Assembly (NCBI GenBank): GCA_017415945.1
Contig: JAFQDR010000108.1
Span: 1 to 64,000 of the forward strand
Length of the DNA: 64,000 bases
Source of the DNA: Oscillospiraceae bacterium
GTDB taxonomy: Bacteria > Bacillota_A > Clostridia > Oscillospirales > Oscillospiraceae
Direction of reading: 5' to 3'
The notes below the pieces were generated by a model, which had not been told where the DNA came from, searched no databases, and was given only the letters and a program-made list of their open reading frames with translations. The translations under genes and the position numbers were made by a program. Shown here one piece after another: positions 8,876 through 33,288 of this stretch. How positions within the stretch are numbered: the first letter of the stretch is position 1; every line of letters begins with the position of its first letter.

Positions 8876-8950
8876 CATGATGGATCACAGCCGGACCAAT
8901 GCAGACCGAATGTCGCGATCGGTTCGGACTATATTGGACTGTCTTACAAA

Positions 8951-17138: not shown

Positions 17139-17690
17139 ATGGAGATCGCCAAAAAAATATGGGATACGGTCTGCACACTGGTCGTAGCGGCAGCGGTGCT
17201 GCTTGCGGTGGCACTGGTAGGTGTGCGGCTTGTGGGATTTCAGGTGTTTACGGTCTTGTCCGGTTCCATGGAGCCTGTGTACTCTCCCGGTGATCTGATC
17301 TACGTAAAGGAGATCGCTCCCGAGGACATTCATCCCGGCACGATTTTGACCTTCATGGTCAATGAGAACACCGTGGCGACCCACCGCGTGGTGGGGGAGG
17401 TACCCTCCGAGACCGAGCCCGATCTGGTGCGTTACCGTACCAAGGGTGATGCCAACGACATGGAAGACGGCACACTGGTCCATCCCAATAATATTATCGG
17501 CACTCCCGTGCTGTGCGTTCCCAAGTTAGGGTATGTGGCAAGCTACATATCCGCTCCCCCGGGGATGTACGTAGCCATTGCGGGTGCGGCGCTGTTTCTG
17601 GCACTGATGTTCATACCCGACCTCTTTGCGGAGGACGAGGAAGAACCTAAGCCCAAGAAGAAGCGCAAAAAAGAAGAAATGACTCCCTAA
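17139..17690 (+). CDS. sipW: SipW-like (archaeal/ER-type) signal peptidase I
   Basis: A 183-residue membrane serine protease. An N-terminal hydrophobic helix (residues 12-35) precedes the catalytic S43 in SGSMEP. The general base is H82 in ATHRVV, where the common bacterial enzyme has Lys, which defines the SipW/ER-type class. A second hydrophobic helix near residues 145-165 precedes a charged tail (PKPKKKRKKEE). Ribosome site GGGGTGAG. Its substrates should be the SipW-type signal peptides encoded directly downstream, as SipW processes TasA and TapA in Bacillus subtilis. Confidence 0.93.
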   Translation: MEIAKKIWDTVCTLVVAAAVLLAVALVGVRLVGFQVFTVLSGSMEPVYSPGDLIYVKEIAPEDIHPGTILTFMVNENTVATHRVVGEVPSETEPDLVRYRTKGDANDMEDGTLVHPNNIIGTPVLCVPKLGYVASYISAPPGMYVAIAGAALFLALMFIPDLFAEDEEEPKPKKKRKKEEMTP

Positions 17691-17746
17691 GGGAAGACAG
17701 GCACTTCCCGTAGGGGCAGTGAATGGAACAAACCCATGGGCAAAAA

Positions 17747-17797
17747 ATATCATTCATTGCAATGAATGATATCACTCCAAGCACACTCGGAGTGATA
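17747..17797. repeat. 26-bp perfect palindrome overlapping a second hairpin
   Basis: Positions 17747-17772 are a perfect 26-bp palindrome centred on TTGCAA (arm ATATCATTCATTG). Its last three bases also belong to a second hairpin, TATCACTCC with GGAGTGATA (17770-17797). No T tract follows, so it is not a standard terminator. It lies between sipW and the first substrate gene. Confidence 0.75.
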
Positions 17798-17862
17798 AGC
17801 CTTACAAACCTTTGTACTATTTTGCCGATAGGCGTTAAAAAACAAATAGGAGGAAAGTTAAA

Positions 17863-18519
17863 ATGAAGAAATTCAAGAAGGCATTGGCACTGCTGCTGTG
17901 CGCAGTTCTGCTGGTGGCAGGCTCCGTCGCCGGCACTCTGGCTTACCTACAGGCAAAGTCCGATGTTGTACAGAACACCTTCACCGTTGGTGATGTAAAG
18001 ATCAAGCTGGACGAAGCCAAGGTTGACCTGTACGGCGAGGAAGTAGCAGGCGCAGAACGAGTAATGAAAAACGATTATAAGCTGCTGCCCGGTCATACTT
18101 ATGTAAAGGACCCCACTGTTACCGTTGAAGCAAAGAGCGAAGACTGCTACGTGCGTGTATTTGTAACCGTTAGCGATATTTCTAAGCTTAAAGAAGTATT
18201 CCCCACCTTCGTTAATACAAGCGGCATGTTTATGTTGGAAAATCTGGTTAACGGTTGGGATGGTAGCAAGTGGGCATGCGTTGGCTATGAAAAAGGCAAG
18301 TATGAATTCCGCTACCATAAAGTAGTAGAGTACTCCGAAACTCCCGTTAAACTGGAACCCCTGTTCACTCATGTTGAAATTCCCGGCACTGTATCCAACA
18401 CCGATCTGGCTAAGCTGCAGAATCTGGAGATTGACGTTGTTGCAGAAGCGATTCAGGCTGATGGCTTTAGCTCTGCTGCCGATGCGTGGGCACAGTGGAA
18501 TTCCACTCAGAATCCCTAA
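17863..18519 (+). CDS. SipW-type exported protein 1 (TasA/camelysin-like)
   Basis: A 218-residue secreted protein. The N-terminus is a textbook SipW-dependent signal: basic KKFKK, a hydrophobic core, GTLAYLQAKS and then NTFTVGDVKIKL. The mature part is beta-rich with alternating residues, conserved DPTVTVEAKSEDCYVRVFV and a C-terminal VVAEAIQADGF, as in TasA/CalY fibre subunits. Strong AGGAGG ribosome site. First in a series of four closely spaced paralogue-like genes; fibre formation is inferred from the family. Confidence 0.85.
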   Translation: MKKFKKALALLLCAVLLVAGSVAGTLAYLQAKSDVVQNTFTVGDVKIKLDEAKVDLYGEEVAGAERVMKNDYKLLPGHTYVKDPTVTVEAKSEDCYVRVFVTVSDISKLKEVFPTFVNTSGMFMLENLVNGWDGSKWACVGYEKGKYEFRYHKVVEYSETPVKLEPLFTHVEIPGTVSNTDLAKLQNLEIDVVAEAIQADGFSSAADAWAQWNSTQNP

Positions 18520-18601
18520 CCCATAAACTTTGTACATAAGCGCAGGGGATTTTCTCTCGTCTGCGAAAAAATAAAACACAAGGAAAGGGGAAATACCCAA
18601 A

Positions 18602-19225
18602 ATGAAAATGAAGAAAGCAATTGCACTGGGTCTGGCAGTTCTGATGATCGTGGCAGCCAGTGTAGCAGGCACCATCGCATGGCTGCAGGACAAGACCGAG
18701 GCTGTTACCAACACTTTTACTCCCACTACTCTGGACATTTCTCTGAAGGAATCTCCTATCAACATTGATGCTGATGGCACTGTTACCTATGGTGCTCCTG
18801 CTGAGGGCCAGAATAATACCTATCCCACTATTCCCGGCACCGAGTATAAGAAGGACCCCATTGTTTCTGTTGCTGCAAATAGTGAAGAATGCTATCTGTT
18901 TGTAAAGTTTGAAGAAACCGGCTCTCCCGCAAACTACTACGAGTACACTTCCATGCTGACGGAAGAAAACGGTTGGACTTCTCTGGAAGGTGTGGAAAAT
19001 GTTTGGTATCGAACCGTGGAAGAAAAGAACACTGTACAGGAATTCCACTTGCTGGCAAACGATAAGATTACCGTGAAGACCGAAGTAACCACCGATAACA
19101 TGAGTGCAGCAGCTGCTGCAAAGTTGGAATGGACTGCATACGCAATCCAGACCGCAAATATCGAAGCAGAAGGAGCTAAGTCTGCTGAGCTGGTTGCTTG
19201 GGAATTGGCTTCCACTACCACCTAA
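18602..19225 (+). CDS. SipW-type exported protein 2 (TasA/camelysin-like)
   Basis: A 207-residue paralogue. The signal shows KKAIALGLAVLMIVAASVAGTIAWLQDK followed closely by NTFTPTTLDISL. The mature domain has KKDPIVSVAANSEECYLFVKF, equivalent to the segment in protein 1 including the single Cys, and the C-terminal WTAYAIQTANIE. An ATG two codons later is an alternative start. Spacing of 82 bases from gene 1 and 35 to gene 3, without terminators, suggests co-transcription. Confidence 0.85.
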   Translation: MKMKKAIALGLAVLMIVAASVAGTIAWLQDKTEAVTNTFTPTTLDISLKESPINIDADGTVTYGAPAEGQNNTYPTIPGTEYKKDPIVSVAANSEECYLFVKFEETGSPANYYEYTSMLTEENGWTSLEGVENVWYRTVEEKNTVQEFHLLANDKITVKTEVTTDNMSAAAAAKLEWTAYAIQTANIEAEGAKSAELVAWELASTTT

Positions 19226-19260
19226 CCCCTACCGCGCTCTATACATAAGGAGATTATTAA

Positions 19261-20064
19261 ATGAAGAATTTGAAGAAAGCTATTGCCCTGCTGCTGGCTG
19301 CTGTTCTGTTGGTAGCCGCTTCCGTAGTGGGCACCATCGCTTATCTGACCGACAGCGACGCTGACGTAAACGTTATGTCCGCAGGTAATGTTTACATTGT
19401 ACAGAACGAAACCGACCGTGACGGCAATGCCTTTGTGAACGGCCAGAAGCTGCTGCCTGCAACCAAGGGCGACGGCTATCTGTCCAAGGACGGCACCATG
19501 ACCGATACCGATGACAAGACCTCCCTGAACATCTGGGACAAGTCCATCAACAACGAAATCGACAAGTTCGTTTCCGTTACCAACGTCGGTACCGAAGCCG
19601 CTTATGTTCGTACCATTCTGCTGTTCGAAACCGTTAAGAGCTACAAAGAAGGCTCCTCTACCGAATACACCGATCTGCACGACCACTTCCTGCTGATGAA
19701 CGGCGACTATACCTATCTGAAGGATGATGCCGGCAAGTTCGTTTATGTAACCATTGATGGTACCGAATATGTTATCGCTGTTAAGACCTATGCCGATCCT
19801 CTGGAAGCAGGCGCAACTACTACTGCAAGCCTGCGTCAGTTCGCTCTGACTTGGGAGGCAGGTAATGAGTTCTATGACTTCTTTGGCCCCGAATATGACA
19901 TCGTTGTATTCTCTCAGGCTGTTCAGAAGCAGGGCTTCGAAACTGTAGGCGCAGAAGCTGCTCTGAATGAAGCGTTCGGCGAAGTTACCTCCGCTAACGT
20001 TGCAGACTGGGTTGCTACCACCGCTATCAAGACCGCAGGCCCCAACAACGTCATCAACCCCTAA
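19261..20064 (+). CDS. SipW-type exported protein 3
   Basis: A 267-residue member. Signal KKAIALLLAAVLLVAASVVGTIAYLTD, then VNVMSAGNVYIVQNE instead of the usual NTFTAG. The mature region keeps SVTNVGTEAAYVRTI and the C-terminal DIVVFSQAVQKQGF. It carries a roughly 50-residue insertion around residues 55-90 and lacks the Cys of proteins 1 and 2. Ribosome site TAAGGAG. Confidence 0.85.
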   Translation: MKNLKKAIALLLAAVLLVAASVVGTIAYLTDSDADVNVMSAGNVYIVQNETDRDGNAFVNGQKLLPATKGDGYLSKDGTMTDTDDKTSLNIWDKSINNEIDKFVSVTNVGTEAAYVRTILLFETVKSYKEGSSTEYTDLHDHFLLMNGDYTYLKDDAGKFVYVTIDGTEYVIAVKTYADPLEAGATTTASLRQFALTWEAGNEFYDFFGPEYDIVVFSQAVQKQGFETVGAEAALNEAFGEVTSANVADWVATTAIKTAGPNNVINP

Positions 20065-20101
20065 TCGTTCTCAATTGAAACTGACATAAAGGAGAATGTA
20101 C

Positions 20102-20854
20102 ATGAACAAGAAAAAGATTTTGGCTCTGTGCCTGATCGTATGCCTGCTGGCTGTTGCTGTTGTTGGCGGCACTCTGGCATACTTCACCGACACCGACGAA
20201 GCAACCAACACCTTCACCGCAGGTAATGTTGACATCGACCTGACCGAAGCAGTTGTTAAGGCTGACGAACGCGGCAACCTGATTGCTGACGGCGACAAGC
20301 GCAACGACGTAGGCGATGCAGAAGACGACATTGACGATGTTTTCGACTACGGCAAGCTGTACCCCGGTCAGTCCGTATTCAAGGATCCCACCATTAAAAA
20401 TCTGGGCTCTGAAAACGCATACGTTGCTGCTAAGATCATCGTCAAGGACGGCCCCAACAGCGATCTGAACGAAGTAATGGGTACCGGCTACAACGATCTG
20501 CTGGGTATTCAGACTCTGATTAGCGGCGGCATCGTTAAGGAAAACGACACCATGAAGGCATACAATAATCTGGCTCCCGTTTATGGTGATGACACCTACT
20601 CCGTATATCAGGTAGCTGACCGTGCAAGCGGCACCTACACCTTCTACGTATTCTTTGAAAATGCTCTGGTTACCGGCGAAGAAAAGGTTCTGTTTGACAC
20701 CATTCAGATTCCTGCAAGCTGGGACAACGAAGAGATGGCACATCTTGTTGACCTGACCATTACCGTTGAAGCATATGCGACTCAGGAATACGGCTTTGCA
20801 AACTGCTTCGAAGCAATTACCACCGCATTCCCCGATGCGTTCAAATTCAGCTAA
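20102..20854 (+). CDS. SipW-type exported protein 4 (closest to TasA/CalY consensus)
   Basis: A 250-residue protein with the cleanest signal of the set: KKKILALCLIVCLLAVAVVGGTLAYFTDTDEATNTFTAGNVDIDL. Mature features: KLYPGQSVFKDPTIKNLGSENAYVAAKI and a C-terminal ITVEAYATQEYGF, all typical of TasA/camelysin. AAAGGAG fits the ATG at 20102 better than one six bases earlier. It ends the tightly spaced block of four; a G+C-rich hairpin and a repeat zone follow. Confidence 0.87.
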   Translation: MNKKKILALCLIVCLLAVAVVGGTLAYFTDTDEATNTFTAGNVDIDLTEAVVKADERGNLIADGDKRNDVGDAEDDIDDVFDYGKLYPGQSVFKDPTIKNLGSENAYVAAKIIVKDGPNSDLNEVMGTGYNDLLGIQTLISGGIVKENDTMKAYNNLAPVYGDDTYSVYQVADRASGTYTFYVFFENALVTGEEKVLFDTIQIPASWDNEEMAHLVDLTITVEAYATQEYGFANCFEAITTAFPDAFKFS

Positions 20855-20949
20855 TTTGATTTTTGATCCCCCATCCCTCCCCCTCGGGGGAGGGAGTAGG
20901 AGAGTGTCCGAGGATATCGGGTATTGTCCTATTGTGGAAGCACCCATAT

Positions 20950-21021
20950 GTAGGGGCGAACATCGTTCGCCCGTCATTCAAAGGAAGATTCCCAAACGGG
21001 CGAGCGCTGTTCGCCCCTACA
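20950..21021. repeat. Paired CTAC-bordered palindromes (72 bp)
   Basis: GTAGGGGCGAAC-ATC-GTTCGCCCG is followed 25 bases later by CGGGCGAGCGCTGTTCGCCCCTAC. The outer borders are inverted copies, making one element like the pair at 48522. The spacer 20855-20949 before it has only the hairpin CCCTCCCCC/GGGGGAGGG and no gene. Confidence 0.75.
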
Positions 21022-21039
21022 CGATAGGGTGTATTGCCA

Positions 21040-21155
21040 GACACCCGCAAGGGGCGTCCCTACGGAGAGCGGGATGCACGAGGATATTCGCAGAAACGAT
21101 ACCGAGCATCAACGCAACAAAAAGCAAAATATAGGTACGAGCTGAATATGCTCGG
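21040..21155 (+). repeat. Structured dispersed element, copy A
   Basis: It starts with a hairpin of the GACACCCGC-AAGGGGCGTC type ending CTACGG, then CGCAGAAACGATACCGAGCAT, and exactly 45 bases after that CGC comes GGTACGAGCTG. A final stem CGAGC-TGAATAT-GCTCG closes it. The fifth SipW-type gene starts 24 bases later. Homologous copies at 21881, 48628 and 50246. Confidence 0.65.
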
Positions 21156-21178
21156 CCGAAGGAAGGAGGGGAAATGTC

Positions 21179-21790
21179 GTGAGACGCATCCGATGGACAC
21201 GAAAGAAAATCGCATCACTGGCTATGGTAGTGGCGCTGTTCGCCATTGCAGCGGCGAGCACATTGGCGTACTACACCGATGCTGTTGAAGCGCATAACAT
21301 CATCACTTCCGGCGGCGTTGACATTACCCTCAACGATATGACCGTGGAAAACGGAGTAGCGGTGGACTTCCCCGAAGGCGGCATCTCCGGTGTCATGCCC
21401 ACGGCGACTGTGTCCAAGGTGGTTTCCGTCACCAACGAGTCCGCTGAGGCTTGGGTACGCATCCGTCTGGAGGAACGCATCGAGGCTCGTAACGGCAGTG
21501 CGCTGCCCGCAGAGCTGACGGACGGCACCCCCGTATATACCCTGAATCTGGTGGATAACACTCCGTGGATCAAGGGCAGTGACGATAACTGGTATTATGA
21601 ATATCCCCTGTGGCAGTATGAGACCTCGGAAGTGCTGTTTGACAGCGTGACCTTTAGCCCCGCACTGGGCAACGAATATCAGGGTTGCACAGTGTATATC
21701 GACGTAATCGCCGAGGCGGTGCAGTGTGCCAATAACCCCCTGCCCGACAGCGGACGATACGAGGATATCCCCGGCTGGCCCGAGGAATAA
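21179..21790 (+). CDS. SipW-type exported protein 5
   Basis: A 203-residue protein starting at GTG behind GGAGGGG. Its N-terminus is more basic (RRIRWTRKKI) but keeps the SipW pattern AAASTLAYYTDAVEAHNIITSGGVDITL. The mature region has VVSVTNESAEAWVRIRLEE and a C-terminal TVYIDVIAEAVQCANN close to the other members. It is separated from gene 4 by 324 bp of repeats and preceded by structured element A, so it may be regulated apart from genes 1-4. Confidence 0.85.
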   Translation: MRRIRWTRKKIASLAMVVALFAIAAASTLAYYTDAVEAHNIITSGGVDITLNDMTVENGVAVDFPEGGISGVMPTATVSKVVSVTNESAEAWVRIRLEERIEARNGSALPAELTDGTPVYTLNLVDNTPWIKGSDDNWYYEYPLWQYETSEVLFDSVTFSPALGNEYQGCTVYIDVIAEAVQCANNPLPDSGRYEDIPGWPEE

Positions 21791-21880
21791 GGCCGCACCC
21801 ATACGCCTTCTCCCTGCAAGGTGAGACGCCAAGGGCAACGAAATGAGCGCTCATTGGGAGCGGGAAAGAGAAAAGAACAG

Positions 21881-21998
21881 GACACCCGAGAGGGATGTCC
21901 TTATGGAAAGCGGTGTACGATGATAAACGCAAAAGCGATACCGTGCATGAATATAGAGACAACAAAAATTGTGGTACGAGCTGAAAAAATGGAGTTCG
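21881..21998 (+). repeat. Structured dispersed element, copy B
   Basis: GACACCC-type hairpin ending TTATGG, then CGC-AAAA-GCG and ATACCGTGCAT; GGTACGAGCTG again starts 45 bases after the CGC. The last stem is CGAGCT with AGTTCG (one G-U), different in sequence from copy A but paired. The giant adhesin starts 28 bases later. Confidence 0.65.
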
Positions 21999-22026
21999 CG
22001 AGGCCGAAGAAGGAGGTGGCGCACAA

Positions 22027-25000
22027 GTGAATAAATTCAAGAGACTGATTGCGCTGCTTTTGGTGGTTGCGACGGTACTGTCCCTGATGGGCAGTGCAGC
22101 CCCCGCTGTGATCGAGGAGGCCGCAGTATCCGAACCCGCTGTGGAGGAGATCGTCTCCGCTGCCGGGGTGGATGTCTATGACTACTCAGCCGACGTGGGC
22201 AAGTATGTCCGATTTGATATGTCCGCTTGGCAGAGCATTTTGGCATCTGCTGACCCCTCCACCGGTGATACTGTATTTGCTTCTATCGCTGATTATGCAG
22301 CCGACTATACCATGACCATCATCGATTGGTATGTAGACGAAAGTACCACCGAAATTTGGTATAAGGTTGTGGCTGCAGAAGGTTATGAGCTGACAGAGGA
22401 TTTGGCAGCATATCCTTGGGTGCTGCAGAATATTGTTGGGGAGTCTACTGACCCCGATACATTTATCTTTGTACCCACTTGCGATATTTGCGGCAAGCCC
22501 GACTGCGACAAGACCCACGTACAGTGTCCTGTCTGCGGTGCGTACGACTGCGACAAGACCCATATTTACTGCCCCGTCTGCGGCGACGCGGACTGCAATA
22601 AGACCCACGTGTACTGCTCCATTTGCGAAAAGTACGACTGCGGCGAAGTGCATGAAGATATCTATACCCCCGATACCGCTCCCGTGATCCCCGAATACAG
22701 CCTGAAAGATGGCGAAGAGATTGCCATCGTGGACAAGGAGGGTGTCCGTGTCGATGCTGCTGACGGCTTCGTAGTGCCCGGCGGCTTCAAGACCGGCCTG
22801 AGCGTATTCTCCGAATATGATGAACATACGGACGTGTCCTACAAGTGGCAGGTTCGCTATGATGCTGCCGAGGACCTGTGGGCAGACATCCGCGGCCAGC
22901 AGGGTAAGGGCATTCTGATGTCCCCCGCAATGTTTCTGAGCCTGATCGAGGACGGCATCAACCCCGCCATCCGCTGTGTGGTGAGCTCTGACGGCACCGA
23001 GCTGGTCAGCGAAGCCATCCCCGTGACCATCGGCACCGCTGCCAACATGGCAAGCTCCACCTACGCCGATACCCCCGTCGCAATCGACCTTGCCGAAGGC
23101 GATGAGGAACCCGAACTGTCCAAGTCTTATGTCGTTGTACAGTATGTTTACAGTGACGGCAGAACCGCTGCGACTACCGACTTCGCAGAAATCATCGGCG
23201 GCAGTGCTTACAGCCACGTTTATACGTTGCCTGCGGTTACCGGTTATAAGGCAACCCTGAATACCCACGTTTTTGGCGACGACGTTACTTTGAACGGCAA
23301 CACCTTGACCATGAACTTTGATGCGGGTGAGCTGACCGACGAGTATACCATCTTCACGGTTACCTATGAACCCGACTTTGTAAATTACACGGTTATTCAC
23401 TACTGGCAGAACGTGGACAACGATAACTATACCGAGCATGAGCGTGAAACCATTGGCAATACCCATAAGACCGGCGAGCAGATCAAGGATGTAGAGAATG
23501 AATACCCCGGTTTCTACAATCTGCTGTACGAAACTCCCGCCGCAGCTGCGGACGGCAGTACCGTTATGGAGGTTTACTACGACCGTTACTACTATCTGAT
23601 GACCTTCGATTTGGATGATATGGGCTACGGCGTTGACCCCATTTATGCCCGCTACGGCGATACAGTGGAAATCGGTACCCCCACCCGCGCAGGCTATACC
23701 TTCCTGGGGTGGGATAAGGCCATCACAGACACCGATGGTGACAAAAAGTTTGACCAAGGCGATGGAACCGTTGATAGCGTCCCCGATAGAATGCCTGCAG
23801 AGAATAGCAATTACATTGCAGTATGGCGCGCAAATGATACCGCAAAGGTTTCCGTAGTCATTTGGGGCGAAAACGCCGATGACGAAGGCTACAGCTATAT
23901 CAAGACCAATGAGATTTATGTGAAGCCCGGCGAAACCATCAGCTGGGATAGTTGGTGCTTTGTCAATTGTAGCAAGAGTGCGCATACTCATAACGCCCTG
24001 TGTGGGTATAATTGTGGTATAGAAGAACACGTACATAACAGTAGTTGCTATACATTAATATGTACAACCAAAGAGCATACTACGCATACAGATAGCTGCT
24101 ACAATTGCGGAAGACAGGAACATACTGAACATACGGATGCCTGTTGCGAGTACGGCGGAACCGGTCGGGGCCATAGGAGGCACAACGATAATTGCTGTAC
24201 TGAAGGAGGCACTCATACACATTCGTCTTCCTGTGGATACAATTGTACATTACATGCCCACTCTGTTGACGATGGATGTTATACATTGTCTTGCGATAAA
24301 GACGAGCATCCCCATACCGCAGCTTGTGGATATGCCTGCGGGGTGACAGAAGAACATGTACATACTTCTGCTTGTGGTAATGATCAGTCCGGTATGAGTA
24401 CCAGTTTGTGGACTTTAGTAAAATCCGATGAGGTTAAGGTTGATGCTGCCGGCAATACTGTTCTTAATGTGTACTATGACAGAACTACGTTTACGCTGAC
24501 ATTTAGAGAGAATGGCAATACAGTGGCGACTATCGTAGAAAAATGGGGTGCAGATATTTCAGATGAGTTTATGAAGGCACCTTTTAACACGACATACAAT
24601 GGACGTGCATGGCGGTGTACGGAAGACGACAAATATGGTTATGCATTACAAACATTGGACAGAATGCCACAGTTTGATGCTACATTCAATCTCTACAATC
24701 AAAGCAGCGATACTTTGAAAACAATTTATTACTATGTAGAGAATGTTGGTGCGAATGTATCTGAAACAGAATGGCCTTCTAATGCGACTAACTTCACACT
24801 TTTGAAGACGGTTGATACATATTTTAATTACGCAACATATCAAGAAGAATACCATGAAATAGAAGGGTTCAAGCGGTATTCTGCAACTGTTGCAGGATTT
24901 TCCGGTAGTCAGAAATACTTTTCAAATAATACATTATATTTATATTATTTGAGAGAAAGTAATACCGTTGAATTTTCCGATGGGTATATGATTAAGAATT

Positions 25001-28000
25001 CGGGCTCTGTTGAGTATGGGGCTACGTTGAGCGCATATTCAGATTACATTCCCACTCTGCCTTCCGCTTACGAAGCAGGCTCTCGTGTATTTGCGGGATG
25101 GTATTTGAACCCCGAATGTACCGGTGAGCGGGTAGATTTGAACGAGTTCACAATGCCTGCGGAAAACCTGATTTTGTATGCCAAGTGGGAGCCTGTTTCC
25201 CGCAAGGTCAACTACTATATGACCAAGGAAAGCCTCGACCGTGGTGAAAATATCCCCGCGGAAATGTTGCGACTGGCAACAGCGGCAGGCAGAGAAAATG
25301 CAGAGCCTTATACTACCGTGTTTGCGGGAGCTACCGTGAAGCATGGTGCTTTCATTGAGAAACCCGATGATCCCGGTGTGTCCGAGGGCTATGCGAATAT
25401 TCACCCTCGTGCGGGCTATGACTTCGCCGGTTGGTTCTACATAGACGAAAACGGTGAAGAAAAGGCCTTTGACCCCGAAAATATGCCCGTTACACAGGAT
25501 CTGAATCTCTACGCAAAGTGGAGTGCAGATAAGCTGTGTGCATACAACATCTATTTTGCATTGGACGCCAACAACGATGGCGTTGCGGATACCGATGGCA
25601 GCGGCAATGTGATTTATATTGCCGACCCTGTTTCCGGTTCCGGTATTGCGGGACGTACTTATACGTTCTCGGCAAAGGGCGGCGAGGAACTGTATGAAGG
25701 GTACAGCGAAGGCTACTTCCCCACGGTTGGCAGCCATTCTCTGACAATCGATGTACAGGACGAATACGGCACCGGTGCAAACAGCTTTACCTTCCTGTAT
25801 CGTCAGAGGGATGCTGTGCCCTATACCGTACGATATGTGGATAAAGAAACCGGCGACTCCTTGATTCCGGATAAGGTGGTAACGGACAACAAGAACGTTG
25901 TTGTTACCGAAAATTATCAGTACATTCAGAGCTATATGCCCGATGCGTACCAGAAGACCTTGGTGATAACCGATGATGATAATGCAGCCAACGACGAAAT
26001 TATTTTCTACTACACCAAGGATAATGAGCATTCTCTGTATGTGGTGAACCACTACATTCAGGAGCTGAATGATGATTTGACTCACAAGGGCTGGACTAAG
26101 TATACCGACCTGCAAAATACCGGTGACATCGGCACGGAGTACACAGCTAATGCCATTACCATTGACGGCTTTACGCTGAGCAAGAGCTATACTGACGGAT
26201 ATAATGTTACCGATAAGAAAAACGGGATGACTGGCGATGCTCTGCCTACCACGCCTATCAGTGCACTGTCCGACGATAGCAAGCTGAGCGGCACATTGTC
26301 CGACAAGGTCATGGAGCTGAATTTCTACTACACCCGTAACCTTTACCCCTACGAGTTCCGTTTTATGCTTAACGGTACAACCACGGAACTGGCCGACCCC
26401 GAATTCGGTAAGGCCGGCTATGATACCACCGTGACCGAAGCATATAAGGAAATCGTAATGGACTTGGACGGCGACGGTGTCAACGAAGACTATCGTCTGT
26501 ATGACCCCACCGAAACCTCTAAGGATATCCATATCAAAAAGGACGGGGAACCTCTGGCTGCGAATGACACTGTCGTAAAGGGTCAGGCAAAGATTAACGT
26601 TGCTACCTTCTACTATGTGCGCTGCACCCAGACTATGACCATCACCAAGACTGTGGTGGACAACAGTGCATTCAGCGATCCCGACCTCAATCAGGACTTT
26701 GACTTTAGCCTGCTGATCCATTCCAACAGCGGCTATCACATGCAAAGCTATAACTACACCAAGTCCGATGGTACAAGCGGCACGCTGTCTCCCGTAATCA
26801 GTGCGCCCAATACCCTGCGGTTCAGCCTGAAGCATGACGAGACCATCACCATCGAAGGTCTGCCCACGGCGGAATACACCGTCAGCGAATTGAATTTGCC
26901 TACGGGTTATTATGATATCGCCGGAACCAATGTTAGAAACAAGCTGACTGTGGATGATCAATTGGATGTCACTGTTACCAACTCCTACGAACCTGCGAAG
27001 CTGAGAGTAACCAAGAGCTATGCGCATGATGCAAATCAGGAATTTGACTTCACAGTTACATTCTCTGATGGCACAATCGAAAGCTTTAAGCTGAGGCATG
27101 GCGAAACCAAGGTATTTGAAAACGCACCTCTGGGCGCATACAGCGTAACAGAGGGTGAACTGCCTTTGGGCGTATACCAGACCGGGGCCAACAATGCAAC
27201 AGGTGAACTGAAGCGCGGCGATGACATTACCGCAGCCTTTACCAACAGCTACGAACCTGCAAAGCTGGTGCTGGGTAAGGGCGTTTACGTGGTGGAAGAT
27301 AATAATATTGCGGCAGAAAGCGGCAATATGGAAATCACCGATTTCGAATTTACCATCACCTTCCCCGATGGTGTGACCCCTGCGGCAAGCTACGCCTATA
27401 CCGTTAGCAGTGTCAGCGAAGGCGTCACGGTTGAAAATCCCAATCGTACTGCCACCGTAGAAGGCAACACCATGAAGATCACCCTGCAGAAGTCTCAGCT
27501 GGCGACCTTCATCAACCTGCCCACGGGTAACTATACCATTGCGGAAACCGATTACGGTCCCAACGGCTATAATACCTATTACATTATCAATCCTGTGGGT
27601 GACCAGTTTGACTCATGGCCTGTAGGCTTGGTCTCCAATCCTCCTCTGACAAGAGGGGAGACAACAACTGTCTACTACGCAAACATGTTCCCCGTTGACG
27701 ATCTGGATATCTACAAGACCGTCAAGGAAGAATATGCAGGCGAGGTTTGGGAAGACAGAACCTTTACCTTTACCGTGGAGCGTAGCGATAAGGCTCTGAC
27801 CGCCGGTGCGGTTTATGAAGTTTTGCTGGATGGCACAGCAAGCGGCACGGCTACCGTCACGGCCGAAAAGACTCTGGAGGTGACCGTGACCTTTACCGCA
27901 GAAGAGGGTGCTGCCCTTGATGCCGCAGGTGAGTCTCTGACCAAAAAGCTGACCATCATGAATCTACCCGTGGGCAACTATACCGTAACGGAAGCTGCGA

Positions 28001-29475
28001 ATAACGAGTTTATGCAGACCGCTTCCGTGGGTCATACCCAGAACGGCAGCTATGTAAAGGACTTTGATGACTCCGATTTGGCGGCCGAGGTTGCTCTGCC
28101 TTGTACCGTTGAGGGAGCAACACCTGCTGTTGCTTTCGAAAATACGGTCAAGCGCTCCACAGGTAATCTGCAGCTGAGCAAGCAGATCATTGTGGAAGAA
28201 GGTCATCAGGCTCCCGCAGGTATAGAAAACGAGCAGTTTGAGTTCGTCATTGAGCTGACTGATGGCACTATCGGCCAGGGATACGAACTGACCGTCAAGC
28301 ACTTCGGCACCGATGAAAAAATCGATACCACCGACGATACGGTTGTCTATGCAACAAAAGACGCGGCGATAACGGAGGGTGCACTGAAGGCAAATGCTGA
28401 TGGCACTTTGACTCTGTATCTGAAGCACGGACAGTACGCAAATCTGACCAAGCTGCCGATCGGTAGCTATACTGTGACCGAAAAGGCAAAGGAAGGCTAC
28501 GGAAGCTCCTTCAATGATATTCCCGGCTCTACCGATGCAGCGCAGGATATTACTATTACCAAGCAGGTGCTTGCAGATAAATTGCAGGATCTGCCCTGTT
28601 ACAACCGCTATCCCCACTATAACGGTACCTTGGTTGTGAAGAAGTCCGTAGAAAATGCAGGCAAGCTGCCTGAGGATGTGGCTCCCGCCGATGCGGAATT
28701 TACGTATACCGTTACCTTGACTTCCGTCAACGTTAAGGAAGGCGACGTATTCAATTTCGAAAAATTGGTGGACGGTACCTCTGCTACCGGCACCTTGACG
28801 CTGGATGCCAAAAAGCAGCTGAGCTTTAGCTTGAAGCACGGTGAAGAAATCACCATCGAAAAGCTGCCCACAGGTGACTACACCGTAACCGAAACCGGCG
28901 ACCACCTGAAGCATTACACAGTGATTTCCGAAAAGCTGGGTGACGATGATGTGGTAATCGAAACCGGAAATGAAACGATTACCGGCACCATTGCGGCAGA
29001 TGACACCGACACCATCGTCTTCACGAACACCTATAAGCAGCACTTGGCAAATCTGACCATTAGCAAGACTCGCACCGGCAGCACATCCGAAGCTCAGAGC
29101 TTTGTCTTTGAAGTGAAGGGTGAAAGCAGTGCTTTGGATTGCGGTCACGATGGTGAGGTAACGGCTGTGAATATGCGTGTTGTGGTCAATGTGCCTGCAG
29201 GCAGCAGCGAAAGCAGCGTTACCGTATATGGTCTGCCTGTCGGTAACTACACCGTGACCGAGGTCTCCGATTGGAGCTGGCGCTATGTACCCAAGAATGC
29301 ATCTCAGACGATTGTTCTTTCCAATCATGGCAGTGTAAGCTTTACCAATACATTGGACAAGCTGCTCTGGCTCTCCGGTGACTGCTATGCCAATAACCAT
29401 TGGGACAATTCCGGTATCAGTGCAAGCGGACAAGTGAAAGTCGAAAATAAGCCCGACGATGCAGGAGATGCATAA
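22027..29475 (+). CDS. Giant multi-domain surface adhesin (2482 residues)
   Basis: GTG start behind AGGAGGTGG; signal peptide at residues 1-26. Order of parts: four CxxC...DCxKTH repeats (152-210); an Ig-like stretch; MucBP/InlB-type beta-grasp repeats (about 360-600, ending AGYTFLGWD); a His/Cys-rich block (645-786); more InlB-type repeats (980-1170, AGYDFAGW, LYAKW); MucBP-like repeats (1266-1440); then seven Cna-B/prealbumin-like domains (about 1537-2445), each with a motif like PTGNYTVTE. No LPXTG motif, membrane anchor or SLH domain ends the protein, so its attachment to the cell is unexplained. Isopeptide cross-links in the Cna-B domains are likely from family knowledge. The segment near 23950-25000 is notably A+T-rich. 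Confidence 0.85.
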   Translation: MNKFKRLIALLLVVATVLSLMGSAAPAVIEEAAVSEPAVEEIVSAAGVDVYDYSADVGKYVRFDMSAWQSILASADPSTGDTVFASIADYAADYTMTIIDWYVDESTTEIWYKVVAAEGYELTEDLAAYPWVLQNIVGESTDPDTFIFVPTCDICGKPDCDKTHVQCPVCGAYDCDKTHIYCPVCGDADCNKTHVYCSICEKYDCGEVHEDIYTPDTAPVIPEYSLKDGEEIAIVDKEGVRVDAADGFVVPGGFKTGLSVFSEYDEHTDVSYKWQVRYDAAEDLWADIRGQQGKGILMSPAMFLSLIEDGINPAIRCVVSSDGTELVSEAIPVTIGTAANMASSTYADTPVAIDLAEGDEEPELSKSYVVVQYVYSDGRTAATTDFAEIIGGSAYSHVYTLPAVTGYKATLNTHVFGDDVTLNGNTLTMNFDAGELTDEYTIFTVTYEPDFVNYTVIHYWQNVDNDNYTEHERETIGNTHKTGEQIKDVENEYPGFYNLLYETPAAAADGSTVMEVYYDRYYYLMTFDLDDMGYGVDPIYARYGDTVEIGTPTRAGYTFLGWDKAITDTDGDKKFDQGDGTVDSVPDRMPAENSNYIAVWRANDTAKVSVVIWGENADDEGYSYIKTNEIYVKPGETISWDSWCFVNCSKSAHTHNALCGYNCGIEEHVHNSSCYTLICTTKEHTTHTDSCYNCGRQEHTEHTDACCEYGGTGRGHRRHNDNCCTEGGTHTHSSSCGYNCTLHAHSVDDGCYTLSCDKDEHPHTAACGYACGVTEEHVHTSACGNDQSGMSTSLWTLVKSDEVKVDAAGNTVLNVYYDRTTFTLTFRENGNTVATIVEKWGADISDEFMKAPFNTTYNGRAWRCTEDDKYGYALQTLDRMPQFDATFNLYNQSSDTLKTIYYYVENVGANVSETEWPSNATNFTLLKTVDTYFNYATYQEEYHEIEGFKRYSATVAGFSGSQKYFSNNTLYLYYLRESNTVEFSDGYMIKNSGSVEYGATLSAYSDYIPTLPSAYEAGSRVFAGWYLNPECTGERVDLNEFTMPAENLILYAKWEPVSRKVNYYMTKESLDRGENIPAEMLRLATAAGRENAEPYTTVFAGATVKHGAFIEKPDDPGVSEGYANIHPRAGYDFAGWFYIDENGEEKAFDPENMPVTQDLNLYAKWSADKLCAYNIYFALDANNDGVADTDGSGNVIYIADPVSGSGIAGRTYTFSAKGGEELYEGYSEGYFPTVGSHSLTIDVQDEYGTGANSFTFLYRQRDAVPYTVRYVDKETGDSLIPDKVVTDNKNVVVTENYQYIQSYMPDAYQKTLVITDDDNAANDEIIFYYTKDNEHSLYVVNHYIQELNDDLTHKGWTKYTDLQNTGDIGTEYTANAITIDGFTLSKSYTDGYNVTDKKNGMTGDALPTTPISALSDDSKLSGTLSDKVMELNFYYTRNLYPYEFRFMLNGTTTELADPEFGKAGYDTTVTEAYKEIVMDLDGDGVNEDYRLYDPTETSKDIHIKKDGEPLAANDTVVKGQAKINVATFYYVRCTQTMTITKTVVDNSAFSDPDLNQDFDFSLLIHSNSGYHMQSYNYTKSDGTSGTLSPVISAPNTLRFSLKHDETITIEGLPTAEYTVSELNLPTGYYDIAGTNVRNKLTVDDQLDVTVTNSYEPAKLRVTKSYAHDANQEFDFTVTFSDGTIESFKLRHGETKVFENAPLGAYSVTEGELPLGVYQTGANNATGELKRGDDITAAFTNSYEPAKLVLGKGVYVVEDNNIAAESGNMEITDFEFTITFPDGVTPAASYAYTVSSVSEGVTVENPNRTATVEGNTMKITLQKSQLATFINLPTGNYTIAETDYGPNGYNTYYIINPVGDQFDSWPVGLVSNPPLTRGETTTVYYANMFPVDDLDIYKTVKEEYAGEVWEDRTFTFTVERSDKALTAGAVYEVLLDGTASGTATVTAEKTLEVTVTFTAEEGAALDAAGESLTKKLTIMNLPVGNYTVTEAANNEFMQTASVGHTQNGSYVKDFDDSDLAAEVALPCTVEGATPAVAFENTVKRSTGNLQLSKQIIVEEGHQAPAGIENEQFEFVIELTDGTIGQGYELTVKHFGTDEKIDTTDDTVVYATKDAAITEGALKANADGTLTLYLKHGQYANLTKLPIGSYTVTEKAKEGYGSSFNDIPGSTDAAQDITITKQVLADKLQDLPCYNRYPHYNGTLVVKKSVENAGKLPEDVAPADAEFTYTVTLTSVNVKEGDVFNFEKLVDGTSATGTLTLDAKKQLSFSLKHGEEITIEKLPTGDYTVTETGDHLKHYTVISEKLGDDDVVIETGNETITGTIAADDTDTIVFTNTYKQHLANLTISKTRTGSTSEAQSFVFEVKGESSALDCGHDGEVTAVNMRVVVNVPAGSSESSVTVYGLPVGNYTVTEVSDWSWRYVPKNASQTIVLSNHGSVSFTNTLDKLLWLSGDCYANNHWDNSGISASGQVKVENKPDDAGDA

Positions 29476-29508
29476 GAACAAATGATTCAAATGAAAGGAG
29501 GCAGGAAA

Positions 29509-30102
29509 ATGTATCACGGCAAACACTATGTAAAATCGAATAAAAGCTCGAAAAAGCGTGTGGCATTGATTGTCTCCTTGCTTCTTTTGGTGTGCGTTTC
29601 CGTGAGTGGCGTTATCGCATTCCTCATGGATGCCACCGACCCCTTGACCAATACATTTAAGCCCTCCAAGGTTACTACGCAAGTAGTGGAAACCTTGAAC
29701 GGCAGTAAGAAGAGTAATGTCAAGATCCGGAATACAGGGGATACCTCTGCATGGATCCGCGCTACCTATGTTGTGACATGGAAAAATAGCGACGGTAATG
29801 TATACGGAAAGGCACCTGTTGCGGGAACGGATTACGAGATTTCGCTGAATGAAACGGACTGGAAAAAGGGAAAAGACGGATTTTATTACTACAAATCCCC
29901 TGTGGTTCCCGATGGATGTACCGAAAATCTGATCAAATCCGTTCAGCCCGCCGCATCCGCAGCCGCACCCAATGGCTTTACTCTGAGTGTGGAGATCCTT
30001 GGCTCCGGTATCCAGAGCGCACCTGACGCTGCGTTTAATAATGCATGGAGAGAGAGCAGCGGATTGACCGTAGAGAACGGTGTATTAGGAGGTGACGCAT
30101 GA
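29509..30102 (+). CDS. SipW-type exported protein 6 (divergent)
   Basis: A 197-residue protein starting at the ATG after AAAGGAGGC. The N-terminus has a long basic leader ([15 protein letters not shown]) before the hydrophobic core, then [21 protein letters not shown], which is the SipW pattern. The mature domain ([34 protein letters not shown]) matches the family of small SipW-type proteins that travel with wall-anchored partners. It overlaps the next gene by four bases (ATGA). Confidence 0.82.
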
Positions 30103-32657
30103 GAAAACTCGTAAAGCTCCTCACTGTCCTCCTAACGGTTGCGGCGCTGCTGTGTGCCTGCGTGGTGCCCGCCTTCGCTTACTCCGAGGTCGTTTACTAT
30201 GGCGACGGTGCCTCTGACTACATCTCCGAACGCGGAGACTGGGGCGACGGGGATTGGCAGGGCCTTCGATACACCGAATCCGACCTCTTCGGCGGCTTCA
30301 AGGACATCATGCCCGGTGACAGCCGCTATGAAACCGTCAGCTTCCGCAATGAGGCTGAGGACAGCGACTACATCAACCTGTACATGAAATTCATCCCCCA
30401 CGATGAATCCGATAACCCTTTGACCTACGACGAAGCCGCTGAAAATGCGGGCGGTAAGGATCAAAGCAATGTGGAAGGGGAACGGGACGAGACCGTTGCG
30501 TCTATGACCGATTTCCTCAATCAGCTGACTATGCGCGTGTACAACGGCGAGGAGCTGCTGTACGAAGGTCCCGCAACCGGTTTGGGCTATCAGCAGGACT
30601 CCCCTGTTCAGCCCGAGCAGCCTCGCATGAAGATGCGTGCTATGCCTCGCGCCCTGACCGTCAGCCCTCTGGATGCCTTCATTAGTTTGGGTACCCTTTG
30701 GGTCGGTGACTCCATTGAGCTGCTGATCGAGCTGATCGTTCCCAAGGATCTGGGTAATGAGTTTGCCAACCGCGTAGGTGAAGTGGACCTCTCCTTCCTG
30801 GTGGAATCCTTCCAGACCGAACAGCTCACTGTTCGTAAGGTTTGGTCCGACGGTAATGATAACCATGCGGGTGAATCTGTTACCGTAAATCTGCTGAAGA
30901 ACGGCAGCGTACATAAAACCGCTGAGCTGAACAGCGGTAACGGCTGGGTGTTTACCTTCGATAAGCTGAAGGAAGGCCCCGTCTGGACTGTGGAAGAAAC
31001 CAATGTCCCCGATGGATATACCGTGTCTCAGTCCACCGACGGCAATGTAGTTACCTTGGTCAATACCAAGGTAGTTGTGCCTGTGACCCCTACCCCCACA
31101 ACGACCCCCACTGTGACCCCCACGGTCACTCCTACAACGACCCCTGTGGTGACGCCTACACCTACGGTAAAGCCTACACCTACACCCACGGTGAAGCCCA
31201 CTCCTACGGTGAAGCCTACGCCCACCCCTACGGTGAAGCCCACGCCTACACCTACGGTAAAGCCTACGCCCACGGTGAAGCCTACGCCTACGCCCACGGT
31301 GAAGCCTACACCTACACCCACGGTGAAGCCTACACCTACACCCACGGTGAAGCCTACACCTACACCCACGGTGAAGCCTACACCTACACCTACGGTAAAG
31401 CCTACGCCCACCCCTACGGTGAAGCCCACGCCTACACCCACGGTGAAGCCTACGCCCACACCTACAGTGAAGCCTACGCCTACACCTACGGTGAAGCCCA
31501 CGCCCACCCCCACGGTGAAGCCTACGACTACACCCACGGTGAAGCCTACGCCCACACCCACGGTGAAGCCCACGCCCACCCCCACGGTGAAGCCCACGCT
31601 TACACCTACGGTTAAGCCCACGCCCACCCCCACGGTGAAGCCCACCGTAACACCTACGGTGAAGCCTACGCCTACACCTACACCTACACCTACGGTGAAG
31701 CCTACGCCTACACCCACGGAGAAGCCTACGCCTACCCCCACGGTGAAGCCTACACCTACACCTACGGCGAAGCCTACGCCCACCCCCACGGTGAAGCCTA
31801 CACCTACACCTACGGCAAAGCCTACACCTACACCGACTGTGAAGCCTACGCCTACACCTACGGTGAAGCCTACACCTACACCTACGGTGAAGCCTACGCC
31901 TACACCTACACCTACGGTGAAGCCTACGCCCACACCGACGGTGAAGCCTACGCCCACCCCTACGGTAAAGCCCACGCCTACACCCACGGTGAAGCCTACG
32001 CCCACACCCACGGTGAAGCCTACACCTACACCTACGGTAAAGCCTACGCCTACACCTACGGCGAAGCCTACGCCCACCCCTACGGTGAAGCCTACACCTA
32101 CACCTACGGTAAAGCCTACACCCACCCCCACGGCGAAGCCCACGCCCACCCCTACGGCAAAGCCCACGCCTACACCTACTCCTACGGTTGAACCTACCCC
32201 CACACCTACCGCTACCCCAGAGGTAACACCTACACCGACTCCCACTCCCGAAGTGACTCCCACTCCTACGCCTACCCCCGATGTGGGACGTACGATCAAG
32301 GTCAACAAGGTATGGGTAGACCGTGATAACCGTGTTCCTCGTCAGGTCTATGTGACTTTGTATAACGGTGAAGCTGCGGTGGAAACCATCACCCTGAGCC
32401 CGGATAACAACTGGACCCACACTTGGGGAGGTCTTGCTGTGGACGGAAACTGGCAGGTTATGGAAACCAATGTGCCCAACGGTTATACGCCTACATACAA
32501 GGTTGATGGCAATGTTGTGACCATTACCAATACAGAGTCCCTGATCCAGACCGGCCAGCTGAATTGGCCCGTTGCGGTTATGGGCGGTGCAGGTATCCTG
32601 TTACTGCTGTGCGGTGCTGCTATGGTCATGAGAAAGAAGCGCGAAGCCGATGAATAA
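30099..32657 (+). CDS. Sortase-anchored Pro/Thr-stalk surface protein with Cna-B domains
   Basis: An 852-residue protein: signal peptide (1-28), a TasA-like or novel domain to about residue 230, a Cna-B domain (241-326, [19 protein letters not shown]), a stalk of about 400 residues built from TPTPTVKP units (328-729), a second Cna-B domain (730-813, VNKVWVDRD), then the sorting signal [10 protein letters not shown], a hydrophobic helix and the basic tail MRKKREADE. The motif is QTG-type rather than LPXTG. The stalk should be an extended rigid rod across the wall. Coupled by overlap to the SipW-type gene before and the sortase after. Confidence 0.88.
31081..32283 (+). repeat. Tandem coding repeats of the Pro/Thr stalk
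   Basis: About 1.2 kb of degenerate 24-nt units coding TPTPTVKP, mixed with shorter [13 protein letters not shown] units and occasional A, E, L or V substitutions. The DNA alternates CCTACACC and CCCACGGT-like blocks with silent changes, typical of slippage-driven copy-number change. Reading frames on the opposite strand are by-products. Confidence 0.9.
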
Positions 32658-33243
32658 GCGATTCGGTCTGCTGCTCATGCTCTTTGGGGCGCTGCTGATG
32701 ACGGCCTCCATGGTGCTGTATCTCCACAATGTCCGAGAGGATCGGGAAGCGGGGGAACGTGCCCAACAGGTGGTGGAACAGATGAAGCCAAGCCCCACGC
32801 CGATTCCGATGGTGGAGGTAAGCCCTACCCCTAAGCCGCCCAAGACAACCATGCCTGTGGTTGAAATCGACGGCAACGGATATATCGGGTATGTGGCCAT
32901 TCCGACTTTGGAGATCGAGCTGCCCGTGATGTCCGATTGGAGCTATGAGAAGCTGCATACGGCCCCTTGCCGTCATGCCGGAGCGACCTATTCCGAGGAC
33001 TTGGTCATTGCGGCTCATAACTACGATAAGCATTTTGGCGGCTTGAAGGACCTGCAGCCCGACGATTCCGTTACCTTTACGGATATGGACGGGGATGTGT
33101 ACACCTACCGTGTGGCACTGGTGGAAACTGTTGCCCCCACGGCTGTGGAGCAGGTACTGGAAAGCGACTACGCTCTGGTGCTGTACACCTGTACCTATGG
33201 CGGCAAGACCCGTGTAGCGGTGTTTTGCGAAATACTGAAATAA
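32650..33243 (+). CDS. Sortase
   Basis: A 197-residue membrane transpeptidase. N-terminal hydrophobic helix (5-24), a Pro-rich linker ([18 protein letters not shown]), then the beta-barrel domain. Catalytic residues are visible: H123 (IAAHNY), C181 (LYTCT) and R188 (KTRVAVFC). The class is not certain; it is neither a typical housekeeping SrtA nor SrtB. It overlaps the stalk-protein gene by eight bases, so that protein is its likely substrate. The terminator behind it closes the locus. Confidence 0.9.
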
Positions 33244-33246: not shown

Positions 33247-33288
33247 AATCCCCGATGTAACCAATGGTGCATCGGGGATTCGGTTTTT
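33247..33288 (+). terminator. Terminator of the surface locus
   Basis: An 11-bp perfect stem (AATCCCCGATG) with a 12-base loop, then CGGTTTTTTA. Confidence 0.88.

Follow-up and report, generated by a model that had tools for sequence, protein, structure and literature searches.

How cells hold TasA-type fibres is an unsettled question because TapA, which is thought to anchor TasA (PMC9674648), is not conserved even in Bacillus (PMC10151520), and the systems of Bacillus cereus and Clostridium perfringens are described as sortase-independent. In the window, that is, the whole stretch of 64,000 nucleotides of Oscillospiraceae DNA analysed here, a cluster of ten genes appears to build a TasA-like surface fibre and, in contrast to TasA-type fibres described so far, to have it fastened to the wall by a sortase via a TasA-shaped anchor. 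The genes are as follows:

17139..17690, + strand: SipW-type (archaeal/ER-type, Ser-His) signal peptidase, 183 aa (TIGR02228; S43, H82)
17863..18519, + strand: S1, SipW-dependent subunit, 218 aa (TIGR04088 22.6, over the cut-off of 19); in 9/10 loci
18602..19225, + strand: S2, SipW-dependent subunit, 207 aa (TIGR04088 14.6, below cut-off); in 10/10 loci
19261..20064, + strand: S3, SipW-dependent subunit, 267 aa (TIGR04088 19.4, over the cut-off of 19)
20096..20854, + strand: S4, SipW-dependent camelysin-signal subunit, 252 aa (TIGR04088 44.8); in 10/10 loci
21179..21790, + strand: S5, SipW-dependent subunit, 203 aa; in 10/10 loci
22027..29475, + strand: BIG, large secreted adhesin, 2482 aa, with InlB-type repeats and seven DUF7601 stretches
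29482..30102, + strand: S6, SipW-dependent subunit, 206 aa, between BIG and the anchor; in 10/10 loci
30099..32657, + strand: the anchor, 852 aa, with a TasA-like head, Cna_B, a Pro/Thr stalk and a sorting signal from residue 815
32650..33243, + strand: sortase, 197 aa (PF04203 61.3, over 26.6)

An earlier, sequence-only reading had already proposed these open reading frames, and every one was found in its place, including the 2482-residue adhesin, the Pro/Thr-stalk protein with its sorting signal and the sortase. Likewise, no foreign gene lies between them, and the run is broken by a dispersed palindrome and by a 72-nt repeat that precedes both 21179 and 22027. Two further features were noted:

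20949..21021, no strand assigned: palindromic dispersed repeat between S4 and S5, outside the system (26-nt arms, 92% complementary)
33247..33280, + strand: intrinsic-terminator-like stem-loop 3' of the sortase gene (13-pair stem, then a T run)

The core of the palindrome has five matches in the window, against 0.04 expected. Terminator-like stems are overall no more frequent in the window than in shuffled sequence, and sigma-70 scans gave counts near the shuffle level. An invertible promoter in the window was ruled out, inverted repeats being absent upstream of its SipW gene.

The gene order is nearly fixed in 10 other loci from 9 genomes of distant relatives, and chance is therefore untenable as the source of the cluster. 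Proteins at equal positions in the loci compared are 25-50% identical to those of the window. Profiles were built from the window genes together with ten seed loci (L081-L090), and the matches of these rows thus arise by construction; among all window ORFs of at least 70 aa in six frames, matches of at least 25 bits were confined to cluster genes. A search of 42 genomes, taken from the 80 best-scoring loci among 566 with a sortase, showed a close SipW homologue in 10 of them; in nine of these ten it shares contig and strand with the sortase, and in genome G012 the two lie on separate contigs.

The peptidase is a SipW or archaeal-type signal peptidase I (S26B) with a Ser-His instead of a Ser-Lys pair. 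It scores 86.1 bits against TIGR02228 (NCBIfam cut-off 51.85), and S43 and H82, the residues assigned by the sequence-only reading, are invariant in 11/11 aligned SipW proteins. With the Bacillus SipW equivalog NF046067 it reaches 87.9 bits, below the curated cut-off of 190.

The six putative substrates had been recognised by the pattern GTxAYxTD..NTFTxG. Taken literally, this motif fits only 1/6 and was rejected as a membership test, although the grouping of all six stands when homology is used instead. Single phmmer queries with S1, S2, S4, S5 and S6 each matched the same-position protein in relatives (37-195 bits), and S3 matched a profile of S4 built without S3 (96 bits); on these sequence comparisons it is confirmed that S1-S6 all belong together. 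The SipW-signal model TIGR04088, which as a control had matches in only 2/14 well-known genomes, is passed by three of the six (17863, 19261 and 20096); 21179 falls narrowly below the cut-off with 18.8 bits, followed by 18602, and 29482 is unlisted. S4 also exceeds the cut-off of PF12389 (34.9 bits against 22.5). The cut-off of 60 of the BsaA family TIGR04090 is reached neither by 20096 (35.6 bits) nor by 29482 (35.5 bits), and the TasA equivalog NF046066 (cut-off 450) lists 20096 alone, with 19.5 bits over residues 3-53. S3 is a second S4-like gene, of which the 10 ordered loci show no separate counterpart; of all genes in the comparison, the one at the S4 position in L092 is closest to it (BLAST 37%). 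Profile comparison by hhalign links S1 with S2 (99.9%) and S5 with S6 (99.7%), the common signal peptide being included in these links. For S5, 2294 homologues were found among 7996 proteins scored. Inspection by eye revealed no C-terminal sorting signal on any of the six proteins.

For the predicted structure of S5 (pLDDT 87.3), the top Foldseek match is the TasA fibre 8aur, but in the VIA comparison TasA is tied with generic beta-sandwiches. Residues 29-43, just after the signal, have a pLDDT below 50 in the model, and this predicted disordered stretch is compatible with a donor strand. When the PDB was searched by sequence, the profiles for the anchor head and for S1, S4, S5 and S6 did not retrieve TasA; the TasA matches arose from fold comparison only. 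An alternative is that there is no common fibre: the S proteins would be independent secreted or surface proteins sharing one secretion route, and the cluster a group of surface proteins equipped with a signal peptidase and a sortase of its own. The limited identity of same-position proteins would fit this explanation, as would the coverage of the structure models, which comprises two domains, the anchor head and S5. However, five S positions occur in fixed order across distantly related genomes, and TasA, CalY and BsaA polymerise according to the respective reports (PMC9674648, PMC13082335, PMC7395162); we thus regard independent proteins as unlikely and retain the fibre as the preferred reading.

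If the S proteins form a fibre, the candidate for its tether is the anchor, whose N-terminal part was modelled separately:

30177..30815, + strand: TasA-like head of the anchor, residues 27-239 (predicted model, fold matches)

Here the expectation of a TasA-type beta-sandwich agrees with the model, TasA being the best fold match, and the head is thus predicted to have the TasA fold. Model confidence is moderate (pLDDT 70.4, with 65 residues below 50), and the Foldseek TM-scores against TasA are low (0.37-0.47, rmsd 6.5-7.3). At the profile level, the head matches S5 across the mature part, and S4 with 94.8% over a span of only 71 columns. TapA is absent among the 50 VIA rows listed for the head, which proves nothing with regard to a TapA-like anchor. 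The remainder of the protein comprises an ordinary-looking signal peptide (judged by eye), two Cna_B stretches (Pfam), a stalk whose gene contains a 24-nt repeat array at 31152-32179, and a C-terminal sorting signal with motif, hydrophobic stretch and basic tail, accompanied by the sortase gene. A sorting signal of the type TG-x2/3-W(P/T) is encoded just 5' of the sortase in 21/21 cluster loci and in 40/56 others.

Alternatively, and closer to the matrix comparison of the sequence-only reading, the subunits would form loose TasA-type biofilm-matrix fibres, with the sortase fixing a separate Cna-B adhesin without a structural role in the fibre. In line with this explanation, the anchor bears Cna_B domains and a stalk and is adhesin-like, and TasA-CalY polymers of B. 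cereus (PMC13082335) and BsaA polymers of C. perfringens (PMC7395162) form without a sortase according to the authors. In contrast, the part of the anchor conserved among the loci is the TasA-like head and not the Cna_B domains or the stalk; the anchor of L088 consists of little beyond head and sorting signal. Moreover, distant loci hold short head-plus-signal proteins next to SipW and/or S genes. A matrix with a separate adhesin hence appears unlikely to us, and we continue with the anchor as a structural component of the fibre.

The distant loci stem from unselected samples, in which the anchor-head profile gave 13 non-seed matches in 11 genomes, a count that leaves out L099 (G305, under the sample thresholds) and the seeds G004 and G014. 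An S-family gene adjoins the head gene in 13/13 and SipW in 10/13 cases; a sorting signal is present in 8/13. Matches to the sortase profile adjoin in four of the 13, three of them weak (L105-L107, just 33-44 bits). The signals of the short anchors read LPSTG, IPQTG or MPKTG. Among the five proteins in which a clear sorting signal is missing, three are long (L096-L098), and two of these fit S5 better than the anchor head; at L093, neither SipW nor a sortase adjoins. Two carriers, both from the search for sortase loci, have isolate-like records, namely Cuneatibacter caecimuris DSM 29486 (locus L089) and Pseudoflavonifractor sp. MSJ-30.

The sortase scores 39.6 against TIGR01076 (cut-off 39.35) and passes no NCBIfam sortase-class cut-off. 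Of 566 loci with a sortase, the 80 best were kept, and 20 of these contain the anchor head, nine being seed loci of the profiles. S6 precedes the anchor in 18/20, the remaining two being interrupted by contig ends, and in 9/11 without the seed loci. The 60 head-less loci gave zero S or SipW matches; where at least 5 kb of upstream sequence was available, 40/43 contain a second sortase, which is of class C in 4/4 tested. A sortase that is strictly dedicated to the cluster as a clade was ruled out, as 6 changes along the tree are required to explain the cluster label; yet 0/500 shuffles gave a number as low (mean 18.8), and all cluster sortases fall within one 26-row set. In this tree L005 and L051 were labelled non-cluster, but both are cut by contig ends and may be of the cluster type.

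Since the same sortase family also occurs in class C loci, a pilus with subunits joined covalently in the class C manner has to be considered. Against such a polymer, the only sortase found by profiles in the window scores 37.4 bits with the class C model, far below its cut-off of 160, the six S proteins carry no terminal sorting signal, as judged by eye, and a second sortase was not found in the SipW loci, each of the 20 anchor loci having a single one (12 with at least 5 kb upstream). We consider a sortase-polymerised pilus highly improbable; a non-covalent fibre tethered by the sortase remains our preferred reading.

The remaining component, BIG, has an ordinary-looking signal peptide by eye, and no sorting signal was seen on it. 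Pfam reports PF24547 (191 bits, 7 stretches), PF09479 (3 stretches) and PF17802 (3 stretches). Its position is occupied by a protein of 874-1875 aa in 10/10 loci, and of these large adhesins 8 of 10 were scanned: the heads vary (VWA in 5/8, InlB-type repeats in 2/8), whereas the tail is constant. Sortase pili have VWA- or Cna-type tip adhesins. The tail of BIG is a candidate docking strand:

29368..29475, + strand: conserved C-terminal tail of BIG (WLSGDCYANNHW...)

A W followed by L/I is aligned in 16/16 tails, which were hand-picked, that of L085 being hand-trimmed after the motif, and the preceding domain carries SWRY in 13/16 of this chosen set.

Taken together, the cluster probably encodes a cell-surface fibre system that is matured by SipW, anchored by the sortase via a TasA-fold protein, and carries BIG outermost. 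As the computed families and signals suggest, SipW would cleave the special signal peptides from the TasA/camelysin-related S1-S6, and the anchor and BIG would leave the cell via their ordinary-looking signal peptides. As inferred from TasA, the S subunits may polymerise by donor strands and form a non-covalent fibre outside the cell, which the anchor head could join as its base because of its predicted TasA fold. Because the anchor has a sorting signal and a sortase is encoded next to it, this enzyme would cleave the LIQTG signal and join the anchor to the wall. BIG, with its exchangeable head and conserved tail, is probably attached via its neighbour S6 as a tip or outer decoration. Such a structure would resemble a pilus and serve adhesion, with SipW and not a class C sortase behind its construction, and would be fastened by an anchoring pair that in sister loci accompanies class C sortases. 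Thus, the fibre/adhesin system proposed earlier is supported in part; in the reading preferred here, the protein with the sortase signal is itself predicted to be TasA-headed and would serve as the fibre base.

A protein of predicted TasA fold that bears a sorting signal and stays next to SipW and SipW substrates in Bacillota genomes sampled without selection represents a concrete candidate for the tether, and the cluster points to a little-studied adhesive organelle. As the same anchoring pair adjoins class C sortases in sister loci, it would moreover link two kinds of surface fibre. More tentatively, and as a possibility rather than a probability, the loci may represent a further class of Gram-positive pili: donor-strand multi-subunit fibres (base, shaft, adaptor and tip) made of or docked by TasA folds, matured by SipW and covalently fixed to peptidoglycan, with a sortase acting on a base of TasA fold. 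They would be widespread in Bacillota, have interchangeable adhesins at the tip and, in certain species, be turned on and off by a recombinase-driven invertible segment, candidates being the repeat-flanked segments of L088, L089 and L093.

The cluster resembles tapA-sipW-tasA of Bacillus subtilis, where TasA forms donor-strand fibres (PMC9674648, PMC10151520), in that a SipW-type peptidase adjoins TasA-family substrates, in the TasA fold, which is predicted with more confidence for the anchor head than for S5, and in the presence of an accessory protein, TapA being thought to nucleate or anchor. It differs by five to six subunit genes where B. subtilis has one, by an anchor with a sortase signal in place of TapA, and by the large adhesin and the sortase. 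The clostridial sipW-bsaABCRSD operon of C. perfringens, with srtB in its 5' flank (PMC7395162), likewise combines SipW with a sortase gene nearby and with a SipW-dependent protein, BsaA, that forms polymers; according to its report, the operon includes a two-component system and has a different gene order, deletion of srtB leaves BsaA polymers and pellicle unaffected, and an LPXTG-like motif is not predicted for BsaA. The cluster proteins fall below the BsaA model. The TasA-CalY-CapP system of B. cereus (PMC13082335) resembles the arrangement proposed for the cluster in that several SipW-processed proteins form mixed filaments and a helper protein is kept at the wall by its C-domain. In contrast to the cluster, that system is called sortase-independent by its authors, and a TasA-fold anchor with a sortase signal and a large adhesin are not seen in the available part of its description. 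Compared with the class C sister loci, the cluster contains neither a class C sortase nor subunit sorting signals and its subunits are of the SipW/TasA type, whereas both share a protein with a TGQLxWP-like signal adjoining a sortase of the same family.

Between 17139 and 33243 of the window, ORF reading places ten genes, all on the + strand:

from 17139, + strand, SipW-type signal peptidase
17863, + strand, S1, protein with a SipW-type signal
18602, + strand, S2, protein with a SipW-type signal
19261, + strand, S3, protein with a SipW-type signal
20096, + strand, S4, protein with a SipW-type signal
21179, + strand, S5, protein with a SipW-type signal
22027-29475, + strand, BIG, secreted adhesin of 2482 aa
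29482, + strand, S6, sixth SipW-type protein
30099, + strand, ANCHOR, protein with Pro/Thr stalk and sorting signal
32650-33243, + strand, sortase
33247-33280, terminator-like stem after the sortase

In ORF coordinates, BIG and S6, S6 and ANCHOR, and ANCHOR and the sortase are spaced by 6, -4 and -8 nt, respectively. Promoter-like and terminator-like matches across the whole region occur at about the level of shuffled sequence. Upstream, the cluster is bordered by an argininosuccinate lyase-type gene and by a gene for a small helix-turn-helix protein on the opposite strand. A 72-nt direct repeat (72% identical; 21075-21146 and 21914-21985) precedes S5 and BIG and may represent a leader or promoter region common to both. 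Dispersed palindromic repeats of the GGGCGAACNNNGTTCGCCC type were found at 10274, 10956, 20954, 20998 and 56361 (five matches versus 0.04 expected), and the window also holds two riboswitches:

8780-8876, THF riboswitch
11185-11363, lysine riboswitch, preceding a gene with a Na+/H+ antiporter-family domain

The signal peptidase scores 86.1 bits with TIGR02228 (cut-off 51.85) and falls below the cut-off of the Bacillus SipW equivalog model. Three of the six substrates exceed the cut-off of the SipW-signal model TIGR04088 and a fourth nearly does so; in a control with 14 well-known genomes, this model gave matches in just two, those of Bacillus subtilis and Haloferax volcanii. The literal SipW signal motif, which the sequence-only reading had ascribed to all six proteins, fits only one. 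The sortase lies barely above the general sortase model (39.6 versus 39.35) and below the cut-off of every listed class model. Moreover, the cluster's proteins remain below the cut-offs of both the TasA equivalog and the BsaA subfamily, and we place the cluster with the SipW/TasA fibres, outside these two groups.

A protein search with the sortase yielded 3194 relatives, and a profile built from 22 of the 120 matches listed detected 566 genome loci, of which the best 80 were kept. SipW and sortase were then searched in 42 of the genomes behind these 80 loci. A close SipW (E < 1e-50) was present in ten. Nine of these genomes, with ten loci between them, encode it on the strand of the sortase and 6.6-10.9 kb ahead of that gene; in the tenth genome (G012) the two genes are on separate contigs. 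Comparison of ORFs with the single proteins of the window revealed one order in the ten loci, SipW-S1-S2-S4-S5-BIG-S6-ANCHOR-sortase, except that L088 is devoid of S1 and L083 has an extra 218-aa ORF ahead of BIG. A separate gene for S3, which is S4-like, was seen in the window alone. By their names, the cluster genomes include Oscillospiraceae, Pseudoflavonifractor, Hungatella and Cuneatibacter, others being labelled no more closely than Clostridia or Bacillota. One cluster locus, L012, lies in a bin labelled Coriobacteriia (Actinomycetota), reflecting either transfer or a mis-binned contig. The proposed SipW-sortase locus is real and, since the cluster is conserved, the finding is stronger than could be known from the window.

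The TasA-like head of ANCHOR, whose fold is predicted, occurs in 20 of the best 80 of the 566 sortase loci. S6 is located upstream in 18 of them, and the contig ends in the other two; nine of the 20 are profile seeds, and with these excluded, 9 of the remaining 11 have S6 upstream. None of the 60 head-less loci among the 80 contains an S or SipW match. A second sortase is present in 40 of the 43 head-less loci having at least 5 kb upstream, and all four second sortases tested are class C (231-286 bits versus a cut-off of 160). Only one sortase is seen in each of the 20 anchor-head loci, of which 12 extend at least 5 kb upstream. Directly upstream of the shared sortase, a sorting signal TG-x2/3-W(P/T), typically TGQLNWP, is found in 21/21 cluster loci including the window and in 40 of 56 non-cluster loci with enough sequence; it is of the LI type in 20 of the 21 cluster loci and mostly of the LP type in the non-cluster loci. 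As signal and sortase are common to both locus types, one anchoring pair accompanies two machines, either a class C sortase or SipW with TasA-family subunits. In the sortase tree, the 21 cluster sortases fall within one supported set of 26 rows without forming a clean clade, and two of the five non-cluster rows are loci cut by a contig end.

In a class sample of 291 genomes, SipW was found in six (E 1e-30 or better), and a strong anchor head (E < 1e-40) in three, all among these six; one of the three, G004, is the centre of the sample. A phylum sample of 398 genomes added five weak anchor-head matches. Without the seed genomes G004 and G014, both samples comprise 13 matches in 11 genomes. An S-family gene adjoins all 13 and SipW ten; a clear sorting signal is present in eight (LIFTG, APDTG, LPSTG twice, IPQTG, MPKTG three times), and a sortase-profile match adjoins four, being weak in three. 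Counting against the anchor model, the SipW loci L096, L097 and L098 encode long proteins (566-641 aa) without sorting signal that match both the S5 and anchor-head profiles, two of them S5 above the anchor head; likewise, the L104 protein ends without a signal and that of L094 is degenerate. By eye, the genes downstream in L096-L098 resemble ABC-transporter parts. Short anchors of 218-278 aa, composed of a TasA-like head and an LPSTG, IPQTG or MPKTG signal, occur in distant Bacillota (L095, L103, L105, L106 and L107) adjoining SipW and/or S-like genes, three of these loci having a weak sortase-profile match. L093, in genome G322, carries a second set consisting of S1, S2, S4, S5, BIG, S6 and an anchor with an APDTG signal; neither SipW nor sortase adjoins it, and a close SipW lies on another G322 contig.

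BIG matches DUF7601 in seven stretches, SpaA (prealbumin-like) in three and Flg_new (InlB-type) in three, and by eye no sorting signal was apparent in it. Among eight large adhesins scanned, five contain a VWA domain, two contain InlB-type repeats and one combines DUF7601 with a PA14 match. They have the last domain and the tail in common: in 16 tails chosen by us, W followed by L or I aligns in 16/16 and SWRY in 13. The combination of exchangeable heads with a constant tail is consistent with an adhesin at the tip or one that decorates the fibre, and the gene neighbourhood suggests that the tail may dock on S6. BIG also has Cys/His-rich short repeats, four CxxC...DCxKTH-type units at residues 152-209 and HTxxC units at about 687-783, which are possibly metal- or disulphide-bearing.

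A tyrosine recombinase (Phage_integrase domain), presumably XerC-like, is encoded directly upstream of SipW or S1 in L088, L089 and L093. The intervening DNA contains a segment of 246-263 nt flanked by inverted repeats (21-24 nt, 92-100%), whose core is common to L089 and L093:

L088, 3191-3478, inverted-repeat-flanked segment
L089, 11809-12119, inverted-repeat-flanked segment
L093, 5011-5313, inverted-repeat-flanked segment

This segment, a candidate invertible switch, is present in three of ten upstream regions examined and absent from the window; no promoter stood out. L083 and L091 have another integrase type (Phage_int_SAM_3) upstream of the cluster, where inverted repeats were not found.

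The analysis itself establishes the genes, their order and signals and, by prediction, the fold of the ANCHOR head; beyond this we infer a scheme of polymerisation, co-assembly, base and tip roles and wall linkage. SipW would trim the S subunits, which might then polymerise outside the cell by strand exchange, as demonstrated for TasA (PMC9674648, PMC10151520). ANCHOR, which contains two Cna_B domains, would enter the fibre as its base through the TasA-like head; the sortase would attach ANCHOR to the wall, and BIG would lie either at the distal end of the fibre or along its length. The earlier proposal of co-assembling TasA-like subunits and Cna-B adhesins thus stands in outline; the role of ANCHOR had escaped it.

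In the literature searched, mostly outside subscription papers and without bioRxiv preprints, we recognised no paper on a sortase-anchored TasA-fold protein among those listed. The nearest published systems are B. subtilis tapA-sipW-tasA, B. cereus TasA-CalY-CapP, described by its authors as sortase-independent (PMC13082335), and C. perfringens sipW-bsaABCRSD. In the latter, deletion of the sortase gene srtB left BsaA polymers unaffected (PMC7395162). In that species srtB lies next to sipW, reminiscent of the window cluster, and hence adjacency of sortase and sipW alone is not new.
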